Origin: Oscillospiraceae bacterium
GTDB lineage: Bacteria > Bacillota > Clostridia > Oscillospirales > CAG-272
Assembly: GCA_015064745.1 (NCBI GenBank)
Contig: SVRR01000017.1
Coordinates: forward strand, 1-39,771
Length of the DNA stretch: 39,771 nt
Reading direction: 5' to 3'
Below the pieces are notes generated by a model, which saw only the letters and a list, made by a program, of their open reading frames with translations, was not told where the DNA came from and did no database searches. This document shows, one piece after another, positions 10,039 through 20,681 of the stretch; position 1 is the first letter of the stretch; each line of letters starts with the position of its first letter. The position numbers and the translations under genes were made by a program.

Positions 10039-10431
10039 TTACTCCTCCGTCTTTTCTTCCGCCGTGGCTTTGTCGCTTTCGTCCTTCACGGGAGCTGCCT
10101 CGATAGGCTTTTCCTCTTCTGCGACGGGCGCGTTGATCTTTACGGTAACCTCACGGATAGCGGTACGCAGGAAGCGCAGGGTGGTTCTGTCCTTGCCGGT
10201 AGCAATGGTCACGGTTTCGCCCTTGATCTTGACGATCTGACCGATAATACCGCCGATAGTGACGACCTCGTCGCCGATCTCAAGGGAATTGCGCATGTTC
10301 GCCGCTTCCTTTTCTTGCTTCTTCTGCGGACGGATCAGGAAGAAATAGAAGAACACGACGACAAGCACGAGCATACCGATGGTCATAAGGCCGTTGCCAC
10401 CGGTAGGAGCTGCTTCAAGAAAAAACAACAT
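10039..10431 (-). CDS. yajC: Preprotein translocase accessory subunit YajC
   Basis: A 130-residue protein with a single N-terminal membrane helix (about 14-34), the family motif FFLIRPQKKQEKE directly after it, and the block GDEVVTIGGIIGQIVKI. YajC associates with SecDF and the SecYEG channel. The C-terminal about 30 residues are Glu/Lys-rich and low complexity, typical for the family. AAAGGAG lies 7 nt before the start. Its promoter (10464-10492) is in the short gap after the CCA-enzyme gene. Confidence 0.93.
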   Translation of the reverse strand: MLFFLEAAPTGGNGLMTIGMLVLVVVFFYFFLIRPQKKQEKEAANMRNSLEIGDEVVTIGGIIGQIVKIKGETVTIATGKDRTTLRFLRTAIREVTVKINAPVAEEEKPIEAAPVKDESDKATAEEKTEE

Positions 10432-10498: not shown

Positions 10499-12349
10499 TT
10501 ACAGGATTTTGTCCTCGCTTGGAATTTCTTTTGCAAGCGATACGTTTTTATAAGCGACCTCTTTCGTCACCTCGCGAAGGACGGTAATAAAAGGGGGAAG
10601 CAAAAATTCTTCCGCTTCGCTTTTTAACTCAATTTCAAGCACTGCCTGTCTCTGCCAAAAGGGGTATACGTCAATTTCAAGTAAATGCCCCTCGTGGGGA
10701 AGCACGTATCGCGTTTTTTGAATGACGTTTCTCGTGGAATCTGCTTTTTTTAAAAGCGCCGTGTATTCCCCGCTTGTGATCTCGCTTTCCTCTTCCACGG
10801 CGGAAAGCGCGGTCAAGCGCCTTTTGACGGTGTGAAAATAGGTTGTTTTTCCCTCCGTCACTCGACACCGTACCCTTGCCGTAGTTCCTTTTTCACCTAT
10901 GAGATAGGTTTGCGTGATCGCACTTTTCTTTGCGCCCAGGGATAAAAGCAGTGATACATCGGGATATTGAATTAGAAACTTTCGTTCGCATTCAATGGGC
11001 AGGTCGCGTTTTTTCGCCAGAAATTCGAGAAGGGCACCTTTTTCGTTACTCGTTTTTCCGTCAAGCACGGCGCCCAGCGCAAGGTCGAGCGCTTTTCCGA
11101 TCTCTTTTCCGCGATATCCGAGCGCGATAAGATCATCCCCCCGCAGAGCGAGTGTGGCGAGGGACAAACGCTCTTCGCTTGTAACGAGCGCCTTCGCTTT
11201 TGATTCCGCTTCGAGAAGTGCCTGTTCCGTGTCGGGCGACAGTGCTTGCTTTTGTCCCATACGGTCGGCTCTCACCAGCGTTAGCCAATCGAAAAGGAAG
11301 TCGTCGCCGTAACGGGAGCGCATCCGCGAGAATTGCTTGGTTTTCGGCATGGGAACGACGTCGTGCATGCGGACAAGCAAAAGGACGCGCTCTCGCGTTT
11401 CGTTATCAAAGCGAAGTCTGCGCATGACGGCATCCGCGATCTCGGCACTCTTCTCCGCGTGCCCGTAAAAATGCCCGATGCCTTTTTCGTCAAGCGAGAA
11501 GCAGTGAGGCTTCCCGATGTCGTGGAAAAGGGCGGCAAGACGAAGCACCTTGTCACAGGGGGAGGACGCGAGCACGCGGAGCGTATGCTCCCAAAGGTCA
11601 AAGTCGTGATGGGGATTTTTTTGGTCAAAGCCCAAAAGTGGTCTGATCTCGGGCAAGAAGACGCATAAAACGTCTCTATATTCGCCTAAGACCGTGTCAG
11701 CGTTTTCGGCAACGATAAGCTTTGTAAATTCCTCGCGGATGCGCTCGGGTGCTATTTCCTGCAAGCGTTCCTTCAAACAATGAATGGCGCTTGCTGTTTC
11801 GTCTTCGATTTTGTAGCCTAATACCGCCGAAAAGCGGAGCGCTCTTAAAATACGGAGCGCGTCCTCGGTAAAGCGCAGCCTTGCGTCTCCTACCGTGCGC
11901 AGAATACCCGTGCGTATGTCAGCTTCACCGCCGAAAAAGTCACGAAGCCCCTTGTCGGGGTGATACGCCATGGCGTTGACGGTGAAATCGCGCCTTGCGG
12001 CATCCTCGCGCAAGGAACGGGTGAAGGTCACGCTGTCGGGGTGGCGCGCATCGGTGTATGTGCCATCGACTCGGTAGGTGGTGATCTCAATTGCTTCACC
12101 CTCAATAAGCACGGTGAGCGTTCCGTGCCTGATGCCCGTTTTTACCGTGCGAAAGTCTGCGAAAACCGCCTCCATCTCGCAGGGGGGTGCGCTTGTTGTG
12201 ATATCGTAATCGTGCGGGATCTTGCCGCGTAAAAGGTCACGTACCGCACCGCCTACCGCATAAGCCTCGTACCCGTTCTCCGTGAGAAGACGGAGCGCCG
12301 TCAAGACGGGGGGCGGCAGGGGAAAGTTAAAATGAGAGGTTGGTTCCAT
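10499..12349 (-). CDS. cca: CCA tRNA nucleotidyltransferase fused to a CYTH domain
   Basis: A 616-residue two-part enzyme. Residues 1-445 are a bacterial class II CCA-adding enzyme. They have GG at 33-34, the metal-binding Asp pair in HDYDI (47, 49), RRDFTVNAM at 119-127, EDALRILRALRF, and an HD domain with H255 and H276-D277. This part builds or repairs the 3' CCA of tRNAs. Residues about 452-610 are a CYTH (triphosphate tunnel) domain: ECERKFLI, QTYLI, RVRCRV, FHTVKRR, KTRYVLP, LLEIDVY, LEIEL and EVTKEVAYKN are in family order. CYTH enzymes hydrolyse or cyclise triphosphates. Free-standing CCA enzymes are about 400-460 residues, so this is a real fusion in one frame. ATG 12349 is chosen because AAGGAG lies just before it; the frame is open further upstream. 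Confidence 0.92.
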   Translation of the reverse strand: MEPTSHFNFPLPPPVLTALRLLTENGYEAYAVGGAVRDLLRGKIPHDYDITTSAPPCEMEAVFADFRTVKTGIRHGTLTVLIEGEAIEITTYRVDGTYTDARHPDSVTFTRSLREDAARRDFTVNAMAYHPDKGLRDFFGGEADIRTGILRTVGDARLRFTEDALRILRALRFSAVLGYKIEDETASAIHCLKERLQEIAPERIREEFTKLIVAENADTVLGEYRDVLCVFLPEIRPLLGFDQKNPHHDFDLWEHTLRVLASSPCDKVLRLAALFHDIGKPHCFSLDEKGIGHFYGHAEKSAEIADAVMRRLRFDNETRERVLLLVRMHDVVPMPKTKQFSRMRSRYGDDFLFDWLTLVRADRMGQKQALSPDTEQALLEAESKAKALVTSEERLSLATLALRGDDLIALGYRGKEIGKALDLALGAVLDGKTSNEKGALLEFLAKKRDLPIECERKFLIQYPDVSLLLSLGAKKSAITQTYLIGEKGTTARVRCRVTEGKTTYFHTVKRRLTALSAVEEESEITSGEYTALLKKADSTRNVIQKTRYVLPHEGHLLEIDVYPFWQRQAVLEIELKSEAEEFLLPPFITVLREVTKEVAYKNVSLAKEIPSEDKIL

Positions 12350-12368: not shown

Positions 12369-12397
12369 ATTTTACCACAACCTCTCAAAAAAAACAA
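12369..12397 (-). promoter_or_regulatory. Promoter of the CCA-CYTH gene
   Basis: Minus strand: TTGTTT (12397-12392), 17-bp spacer, TAAAAT (12374-12369). It is divergent from the metK promoter about 30 bases away. Confidence 0.6.
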
Positions 12398-12463: not shown

Positions 12464-12597
12464 ATCTCATCAAGAGTGGCTGAGGGACAGGCCCTATGAC
12501 GCCCGGCAACCTGTTGCGACAAGGTGCTAATTCCCGATAGATGAGATCTTGGCGGTATACCGCCCATGCCTCGGGAAGCCTGTCCCGAGTTTTTTTA
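12464..12597 (+). promoter_or_regulatory. SAM-I (S-box) riboswitch controlling metK
   Basis: The aptamer spans 12464-12547. P1 is ATCTCATC (12464-12471) with GATGAGAT (12540-12547). The conserved cores AAGAGTGGCTGAGGGAC, CCCTATGACGCCCGGCAACC and GACAAGGTGCTAATTCC appear in order. The expression platform has a small hairpin (12551-12564) and a terminator: CTCGGGA (12570-12576), loop AGCCTG, TCCCGAG (12583-12589), then eight T. TTCCCGA (12531-12537) at the 3' side of the aptamer can pair with TCGGGAA (12571-12577) as an antiterminator. The expected logic is SAM bound, terminator formed, metK off. Confidence 0.95.
12570..12597 (+). terminator. Conditional terminator of the SAM riboswitch
   Basis: 7-bp stem CTCGGGA/TCCCGAG, 6-nt loop, eight T. 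The 5' arm is the one claimed by the antiterminator. Confidence 0.9.
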
Positions 12598-12632: not shown

Positions 12633-13814
12633 ATGAGCAAGCTTCTTTTTACCTCCGAATCCGTTACCGAAGGGCATCCCGATAAAATTTGCGATAAAAT
12701 ATCGGACGCCATCCTTGACGCTATACTCGCAAAGGATAACATGGCGCGTGTAGCGTGTGAGACTTTTGCCACGACAGGTGTTATCACAGTTATGGGAGAG
12801 ATCACCACCGAGGCATACGTAGATATTCCCACCATCGTGCGTAAAACCGTGGAGGAGATCGGCTACGACCGCGCGAAATACGGCTTTGATTGCCACACCT
12901 GTGCCGTGCTCACCTCCATTCACGAGCAATCCCCCGATATCGCCATGGGCGTTGACCGCTGTGCCGAGGCAAAGAATGGCGAAATGACCGACGAGCTGGA
13001 TACGGGCGCGGGCGACCAGGGTATGATGTTCGGTTATGCCTGCAACGAAACGAAGGAGCTGATGCCCCTTCCCATCTCCCTTGCCCACAAGATGGCAAAG
13101 AGACTTACAGAGGTGCGCAAAAACGGTACGCTCCCTTATCTTCGCCCCGACGGAAAAACACAGGTTACCGTGGAATACGTAGACGGTATTCCCGCGCGTG
13201 TCGATACCGTGGTCGTTTCCTCTCAGCATGCGGAGGACGTTGATAACGCCACCATTCGTGCCGATATCATTCGCGAGGTCATTCAAGCGACCGTTCCCGA
13301 AGCGCTTCTTGACGATGCTACCAAGATCTACGTAAACCCCACGGGACGCTTCGTGGTAGGAGGTCCTCAAGGGGATACGGGTCTTACGGGCAGAAAGATC
13401 ATCGTAGATACCTACGGCGGTTACGCGCGCCACGGCGGCGGCGCGTTTTCGGGCAAGGACCCCACCAAGGTGGACCGTTCCGCTTGCTACGCCGCGCGTT
13501 ATGCCGCAAAGAACGTCGTTGCCGCCGGACTTGCCGATAAGTGTGAGGTGCAGCTCGCTTATGCGATCGGCGTCGCACGCCCCGTTTCGGTCATGGTAGA
13601 TACCTTCGGTACGGGCAAGCTTCCTGACGAGCAGATTGGTGCGCTTTTGAACGCAACCATTGATTTCCGCCCCGCCGCTATCATTAAGCACTTTGACCTT
13701 CGCCGTCCCATTTATTGCGATCTTGCTGCATACGGACACATGGGCAGAGAAGACCTTGACGCGCCTTGGGAGAAAACAGATCTCGTTCCTCTTCTGAAAG
13801 CGGCATTGAAGTAA
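12633..13814 (+). CDS. metK: S-adenosylmethionine synthetase
   Basis: Makes SAM from methionine and ATP in the cytoplasm. The 393-residue length is standard. [14 protein letters not shown] at the N-terminus contains the ATP-binding His and metal Asp. [12 protein letters not shown] lies at about 124-135 and [17 protein letters not shown] at about 267-283. AAAGGAAAA lies 10 nt before the ATG. It is controlled by the SAM-I riboswitch just upstream. No terminator was found after it, so the next two genes may share its transcript. Confidence 0.98.
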
Positions 13815-19673: not shown

Positions 19674-20681
19674 TTAAGCAAAATCCGCCGTTCGGTATGC
19701 GCGTGTATAAGCGTGCTCCCCCTTCGCATCAATCACTTCGATGCGGAAGTATTTGCCAAGCTTCGCTTCGTCCAGCGGAAATGCCGCCTTGTCGATGTAC
19801 CCACCCACGCCGTGCGCGGCACAAAGCTTTCTTCCTTCGCTATGTAAGAGAATGTGGGAGGCAGGGGACGTCTTAATGACGAGTGCCCCCTCTTCAACAT
19901 AGGCGGAAAGGATAGAAGGACCTGTGGAAACATAAGCGTTTCCTTCTGCCAAAGCGTCAGTTAAGCCTTCATAGGAGAACTCCCGTGCGGCAATCATGGT
20001 GAAAGCCCCAAAGCTGTCCGAAATGCTTACCCCTGCGTTATGGTTGTCGTCAGCCCCCACGACGTAGGCGTTAAGGCTTCCGCCAAGACGTAAATAATCC
20101 TCGTATACGTCAGCGTTATAATCACCGTGATAACGGCAATCGGTGTTGCAAAGCTCAAGCCCATCGAAGGGAAGAGAAAGAAGCTTATCCGCCGTCATCA
20201 GAGACCACCGCGGATGGTTGTAGTGTACGAGAAAACCGTTTGCGTGTGCTTCTTCGATCAAGTGGGTGACAAATTTGTCGGTAAACTCGTATTTGGTGCG
20301 CTCGCCCGTGTAACGCAAGAAGGGAATATAGCTTTTGCAGTTGCCCGGCGTGAAATTTTCGGGATAAAAGCAAACGGCAACGTCGTCGTGGGGACGGCGC
20401 TTAATAAGGCACAGGTGATGCACCTTCATGTGCGAGTCCGTATGACCCTCGTACTCCTTGATGGAAGTCTCGTATCCGTTCAAGGCGATGAAACGGTCAT
20501 CCGTCAAGTCGTCGTGCAAAACAAGTGCCTCGTGGTCGGTAAACGCTACGGCATCGTACCCCTCGGCAACGTACATTGCCTTGATCTCCTCCGGCGTTTT
20601 TTTGCCGTCGGAGATCACTGTGTGGCAATGTAGATTTGCCTTGTAAAATTTTCTTCCCTCGGGGAAAAGATACTTTCTCAT
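19674..20681 (-). CDS. PHP-domain phosphoesterase
   Basis: A 335-residue metal-dependent phosphoesterase of the PHP family. LHCHTVISDG (H18, H20), AFTDHEAL, VHYNHPRWS and GADDNHN are the metal-binding blocks in order. The C-terminal about 70 residues look like a small beta domain. The start codon overlaps the transketolase stop as ATGA, so translation is coupled. Other PHP proteins of this size hydrolyse sugar phosphates or nucleotides. Its position suggests a sugar-phosphate substrate, which is inference only. Confidence 0.85.
   Translation of the reverse strand: MRKYLFPEGRKFYKANLHCHTVISDGKKTPEEIKAMYVAEGYDAVAFTDHEALVLHDDLTDDRFIALNGYETSIKEYEGHTDSHMKVHHLCLIKRRPHDDVAVCFYPENFTPGNCKSYIPFLRYTGERTKYEFTDKFVTHLIEEAHANGFLVHYNHPRWSLMTADKLLSLPFDGLELCNTDCRYHGDYNADVYEDYLRLGGSLNAYVVGADDNHNAGVSISDSFGAFTMIAAREFSYEGLTDALAEGNAYVSTGPSILSAYVEEGALVIKTSPASHILLHSEGRKLCAAHGVGGYIDKAAFPLDEAKLGKYFRIEVIDAKGEHAYTRAYRTADFA

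Follow-up and report, generated by a model that had tools for sequence, protein, structure and literature searches.

The window, the 39,771-nucleotide stretch of DNA analysed here, encodes a CCA-type tRNA nucleotidyltransferase joined to a CYTH/TTM domain. The frame is continuous, both parts have clear homologues, the catalytic residues are kept, and the genomes that carry the protein form one species clade in which it occupies a syntenic place. The reading we favour, with a probability of roughly 0.6, is that this is a bifunctional protein in which CCA repair and tripolyphosphate hydrolysis were joined once, mainly for co-expression, and in which each site probably works independently. That both sites are active, that CCA addition serves mainly repair, that the joining happened once and that nothing is channelled between the sites are inferences.

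A continuous frame with two conserved parts

As originally predicted, one uninterrupted frame holds the tRNA nucleotidyltransferase, its HD domain and the CYTH domain; it begins with the ATG at 12349, ends in the stop codon 10499-10501 and codes for 616 residues with no internal stop (Table 1). Translation from a TTG at 12397 would lengthen the protein by 16 residues, but the ATG is preferred because four orthologues support it; by eye, a GGAG also lies upstream of the ATG. An assembly error joining two genes, which the original prediction had named as a possible refutation, is ruled out together with chance, since five genomes carry the same full-length frame. Among these five fusions the junction between the parts varies by a few residues.

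Table 1. Features of the fusion locus, in window coordinates
Feature	Position	Strand	Basis
Fused CDS, CCA-type tRNA nucleotidyltransferase-CYTH/TTM, 616 aa	10499..12349	(-)	open frame; full-length orthologues in four other genomes
CCA-adding enzyme part, residues 1-447	11009..12349	(-)	Pfam; alignment to 6IBP and 1MIV; conserved columns
Short interdomain junction, residues 448-450 as drawn	11000..11008	(-)	alignment of five fusions
CYTH/TTM part, residues about 451-614	10508..10999	(-)	matches to NE1496; alignment A3 (53 rows); five fusions
yajC, next gene downstream of the fusion	10039..10431	(-)	gene neighbourhood
SAM riboswitch of divergent metK, in the shared intergenic region	12464..12547	(+)	Rfam RF00162, 74.1 bits
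Terminator-like stem before metK	12570-12589		lies with the SAM riboswitch before metK
metK, divergent neighbour of the fusion	12633..13814	(+)	adjoins the fusion in 5/5 fused genomes

In the N-terminal part Pfam finds PolyA_pol (PF01743) at residues 29-151 (4.4e-36, 124.5 bits against a cut-off of 23), the neck domain PolyA_pol_RNAbd (PF12627) at residues 178-221 (1.2e-10, 41.4 bits against 22) and an HD domain at residues 267-332 (1.1e-7), and the first 230 or so residues align to the CCA enzymes of Planococcus (6IBP, 1.2e-54) and Bacillus (1MIV, 1.1e-49). DxD and RRD are motifs of class II CCA-adding enzymes. Both are kept, as D47/D49 and RRD at 119-121, together with EDALR at 162-166 (E162-D163-R166), and the motif stretch aligns to 6IBP with a 2-residue insertion. 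The EDxxR pattern is described as the base-recognising motif (PMC8563995). We infer the exact specificity, because the protein scores below the NCBIfam cut-off for the CCA equivalog (PRK13299, 265.8 bits against 290); the actinobacterial model TIGR02692 (216.9 against 438.8) and pcnB (165.6 against 305.65) also stay below theirs. The motifs, and the finding of a sole gene of this kind, point to a class II nucleotidyltransferase specific for CCA and not for CC, A or poly(A). Sequences related to the CCA enzyme also occur on 50 contigs of a viral collection (L186-L235), at 29-46% identity in the best segment, and these may be phage genes or host sequence in viral bins.

A single PolyA_pol-family match was found in each of ten genomes, five fused and five unfused, and the fusion is the only candidate CCA enzyme found in the fused genomes, as far as incomplete bins tell. 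The CCA end is encoded in all 30 distinct tRNA sequences read (G000, L332-L361; 30 places of 45 matched), and two tRNA genes in the window, one of them among the 30, encode it as well. Since the tRNA genes already carry CCA and no other PolyA_pol-family gene was found, the enzyme is more likely to be needed for repair than for first synthesis of tRNA 3' ends.

For the CYTH part, the earlier limits (residues 452-610) and motifs prove correct. The original prediction had also proposed a search of the C-terminal 165 or so residues against Pfam CYTH, and here the answer is divided. PF01928 does not match the window's own CYTH stretch, either in the protein or in its genome, but at E up to 1 it does find 32 of the 53 sequences in alignment A3, the best at 6.7e-9. 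Among the three fused orthologues scanned (G219, G199 and G241, with G212, locus L062, left out), it scores 26.3 bits on G219 (L063), above the cut-off of 23.2, and 19.2 bits on G199 (L061), below it, with no match on G241 (L064) at 0.01. The model misses window positions 10502-11008 and 20 of the 52 other A3 rows, and Pfam-based surveys will therefore undercount this group. With phmmer the stretch matches 2FBL (7e-8) and 3TYP (3e-8) end to end, the 53-row A3 profile reaches the same two chains at 5e-16 to 7e-16, and NE1496 (2FBL) and the near-identical 3TYP are the sole credible matches among solved chains (E 0.01). Chance resemblance is ruled out by these matches and by the PF01928 matches of relatives, and an adenylate cyclase of the CyaB type is not favoured, NE1496 and 3TYP being the sole solved matches at that threshold. 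The end-to-end match to 2FBL suggests the eight-strand tunnel fold. Pfam finds no CHAD domain in the window protein.

The residues expected of a working tunnel are retained. The ExExK motif (E453, E455, K457) and the tunnel residues R492, R494, K509, E519, E521, K545, R547, E558, D560, E572 and E574 are identical in the five fusions and invariant in A3; further residues of the CYTH part are Y482 and the YKN of 600-602. NE1496 we take to be NeuTTM, with which the residue numbers fit. In the A3 profile alignment Tyr-28 and Lys-52 of NeuTTM correspond to Y482 and K509 of the window protein, PDB numbering being one higher. NeuTTM is reported to be a specific inorganic tripolyphosphatase with Tyr-28/Lys-52 as its suggested dyad (PMC3440374), and for YgiF and AtTTM3 two metals are described as bound by glutamates of the same motifs, with one arginine thought to activate the substrate (PMC4641920).

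Distribution of the fusion and of its CYTH module

How widespread the architecture is was a question that the original prediction left to genome sets, and the answer is that it is narrow. The full-length fusion occurs in 5 of 69 genomes of the genus, none with internal stops: the window's own, G199 (about 70-71% identity to the window fusion), G212 (62%), G219 (52%) and G241 (about 48-49%). In the samples of the family (1/196), order (1/394) and phylum (1/398), which overlap and in which a full-length match would stand among the best rows listed, only the window's own genome carries it among the matches listed. No CCA-enzyme fusion appears in the best 80 of 522 CYTH loci in named genomes, a set from which genomes very near the window's may be left out. 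In the genus search the whole protein had one match per fused genome, and 59 of the 64 genus members without the fusion have a CYTH match separate from the CCA enzyme, that of G207 being a fragment.

In an rpoB tree of 18 genomes, 14 of them unfused, the four fused genomes with an rpoB match group together as one clade (100/100); G219 gave no match to rpoB and is placed by synteny and gene trees. A quick tree of the CCA part put the five fusions in two groups on starred branches, two of them beside unfused G225 (96), which would need two changes, and a careful tree of 26 rows brought all five together at weak support (48/92). Two independent fusions, as the quick tree suggested, are unsupported by the careful CCA tree and by rpoB. 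The five fusions are not grouped in the CYTH tree, which leaves the origin of the fused domains unresolved. The most probable history appears to be one joining event in the common ancestor of a subclade within the genus. The two parts have diverged alike (69.8 and 72.3% for G000-G199, 48.2 and 48.2% for G000-G241). For both parts, every one of the ten pairs has a pN (0.19-0.38) smaller than its pS (0.61-0.82); pN and pS were used rather than dN/dS because dS was saturated in many pairs and its zeros were artefactual.

The downstream neighbour yajC also adjoins the fusion in G199 and G212 but not in G219 or G241. None of 69 unfused CCA loci, among which one gene is counted twice, has metK in its flanks of up to 1.5 kb. 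A gene at window positions 19677-20681, 7 kb from the fusion, encodes a PHP domain, and in unfused G172 (L241:8846-10317) a separate CYTH gene abuts its homologue.

Outside the fusion, CYTH sequences of the window's kind occur in 52 of the 196 genomes sampled from the family and in 93 of the 394 from the order; in the family they mostly form a separate gene, since 41 of the 53 places listed for the family lie in open frames under 300 codons. The domain is also found behind an RluA-like pseudouridine synthase, PseudoU_synth_2 (L033:826-1992, PF00849 4.5e-25; L032, L039 and L112 are of the same kind by eye), a pairing for which the literature search found no paper with both domains, and behind an AAA_28 kinase-like domain (L060:892-1980, 2.2e-25, with others among L087-L166 by eye). 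Such fusions fit an independent module.

A nucleotidyltransferase gene lies within the flank (up to 4 kb) of 3 of 80 CYTH loci. In L122 (3761-5865) the CYTH gene overlaps the start of a class II nucleotidyltransferase gene by one base on the same strand; the front part of this CYTH gene resembles the AAA fusions by eye and has no Pfam match. In L096 (2722-4495) a CCA-type nucleotidyltransferase gene and a CYTH gene are close divergent neighbours, and in L155 the two are 2 kb apart. The short distance between the genes at these three loci is a hint of something more than co-expression. Among the matches listed, five unfused members of the genus (G085, G203, G220, G222, G197) carry the two genes 5.5-10.6 kb from each other on the same contig and strand, and their loci (L246-L250) share genes between and around the CCA enzyme and CYTH. 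In the family only G085 has them that close, with G030 and G134 at 24-32 kb, again among the matches listed. In the order, none of the 37 unfused genomes with both places listed has the genes within 100 kb, a set that does not include G415, taken as the genome of L096, which has the pair. From this comparison of listed places by eye, a general CCA-CYTH operon is rejected: some genomes do have the two genes linked, but in the order it was seen in 0 of 37 among the matches listed.

Function of the joined domains and alternative readings

In the favoured reading of a bifunctional protein, the N-terminal part would repair worn tRNA 3' ends, using CTP and ATP and releasing pyrophosphate, and the C-terminal part would act as a tunnel metalloenzyme of the NeuTTM type, with two divalent metals, hydrolysing inorganic tripolyphosphate and perhaps other triphosphates. 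The joining would be a single event next to metK, ancestral to one subclade of the genus, and the fusion would take the place of the free-standing CYTH gene that lies at another site in most unfused members of the genus. The benefit would most likely be common expression and dosage, each active site acting alone. Polyphosphate by way of PPK1 is rejected, PPK1 being found in none of the ten genomes searched (0/10).

Among the activities offered by the original prediction, tripolyphosphate hydrolysis is the best supported, given NE1496/NeuTTM as the nearest solved relative and the retained dyad, and the CCA-CYTH fusion itself stands, but removal of the pyrophosphate product of CCA addition is not favoured. 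Characterised relatives are reported to cut triphosphates, and pyrophosphate to close and inhibit the tunnel of SaTTM (PMC8233210); AtTTM1 and AtTTM2, reported to use pyrophosphate, are described in the same paper as being without the signature motifs, which are present in the window's CYTH part. For these reasons a role as a simple pyrophosphate scavenger for the CCA reaction is unlikely.

A coupling of the two sites, in which the tunnel would either strip triphosphates from RNA bound to the enzyme or sense tripolyphosphate or pyrophosphate and gate CCA repair, is in our view unlikely, and its two forms meet different evidence. As an enzyme acting on RNA, the CYTH part would remove 5'-triphosphates from tRNA precursors or other RNAs held by the CCA enzyme, placing the treatment of both ends in one protein. 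RNase P, however, leaves mature bacterial tRNAs with a 5'-monophosphate, the nearest solved relative acts on inorganic tripolyphosphate, and the absence of linkage within 100 kb in the 37 unfused order genomes with both places listed also counts against such a partnership. In its favour, RNA triphosphatases are reported among CYTH-fold enzymes (PMC8233210, PMC4641920), the same clostridial CYTH family is fused to a pseudouridine synthase, itself an RNA enzyme, and the genes overlap in L122 and form a close divergent pair in L096. Geometry argues the other way: class II enzymes are described as holding the acceptor and T helices with body and tail, pyrophosphate release accompanying the steps, and the tail of an A-adding relative as holding the tRNA elbow, away from the 5' end (PMC3925840). 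A CYTH domain hung by a few residues behind the tail would therefore lie far from the tRNA 5' end, which makes 5' action on a bound tRNA less likely, and we regard action on RNA as quite improbable. The same low standing is given to regulation, whereby tripolyphosphate, pyrophosphate or a nucleotide bound in the tunnel would alter CCA addition, or pyrophosphate from CCA addition would inhibit the tunnel. The closure of SaTTM by pyrophosphate would suit such a switch, as would the report that a C-terminal region of A-adding relatives dictates specificity (Tretbar 2011). A binding domain, however, would hardly need all of the catalytic residues listed above, which are kept in the five fusions.

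The constant position beside metK raises the thought that the CYTH part serves this neighbour, clearing tripolyphosphate, the enzyme-bound intermediate of S-adenosylmethionine synthesis, with the CCA part a mere carrier. PPPi is indeed made in that synthesis, but MetK itself cleaves the PPPi that it makes, the two genes diverge and only the metK strand has the SAM riboswitch, and the five loci are probably one event. Elsewhere, with flanks of up to 4 kb on either side, metK is found near 1 of 80 unfused CYTH loci, and with flanks of up to 1.5 kb on either side near none of the 29 loci L032-L060, and the literature search found no paper combining the terms of this proposal, which we hold to be very unlikely. 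A neutral joining of two genes, without gain and with CYTH as a passenger, would agree with the narrow spread in one clade and with a CYTH family that has been joined to several unlike partners. Against it stand the similar rates of divergence of the two parts, pN below pS, and catalytic residues kept down to 48% identity, so that neutrality too is highly improbable, and we return to the bifunctional enzyme as the preferred account.

Relation to known enzymes and significance

Both domains are known; what is new is their union, found in a single clade of a genus with relatives on record as uncultured Clostridia of the gut. The window protein has head and neck motifs in common with class II bacterial CCA-adding enzymes (6IBP, 1MIV) but differs from them by about 165 extra residues, the CYTH domain, behind the tail. 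The original prediction named no earlier account of such a fusion, and our literature search agrees within its coverage, finding no description of a CCA enzyme-CYTH fusion; it did not cover the earlier CYTH survey cited for fusion partners, reportedly that of Iyer and Aravind 2002. A CYTH domain and CCA adding were mentioned together only in a biofilm proteomics paper, going by its title and the start of its abstract.

With NeuTTM (NE1496, 2FBL; 3TYP) the window's CYTH part shares ExExK, the tunnel residues, the Tyr-28/Lys-52 dyad and alignment from end to end, but NeuTTM stands alone, in a sequence-network cluster described as being of single-domain length (PMC8233210), and the window domain is fused. 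E. coli YgiF (CYTH-CHAD) offers a likeness in being a two-domain TTM tripolyphosphatase; it differs in that its partner is CHAD, its CYTH domain is N-terminal and its equivalent of Lys-52 is said to seem absent (PMC3440374). The multidomain partners named in PMC8233210, partly after the earlier survey, are HD hydrolase, exopolyphosphatase, nucleotidyl kinase, CHAD and phosphoribulokinase. Like the window protein, these fusions present CYTH as a mobile module at the interface of nucleotides and phosphates; the list names no tRNA nucleotidyltransferase as such.

The physiological role of bacterial tripolyphosphatases is unsettled, and the authors of the NeuTTM and YgiF study report that PPPi above about 1 uM in cells could not be shown (PMC3440374). 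If the two domains are independent, the fusion would be an example of a mobile housekeeping domain. If coupling is true, the pseudouridine synthase-CYTH fusion and the overlapping pair of L122 would be further versions of a single connection of CYTH with RNA maintenance. Here CYTH has a defined natural partner, a tRNA enzyme that is well understood, and this offers a simple test of whether CYTH proteins take part in RNA maintenance.
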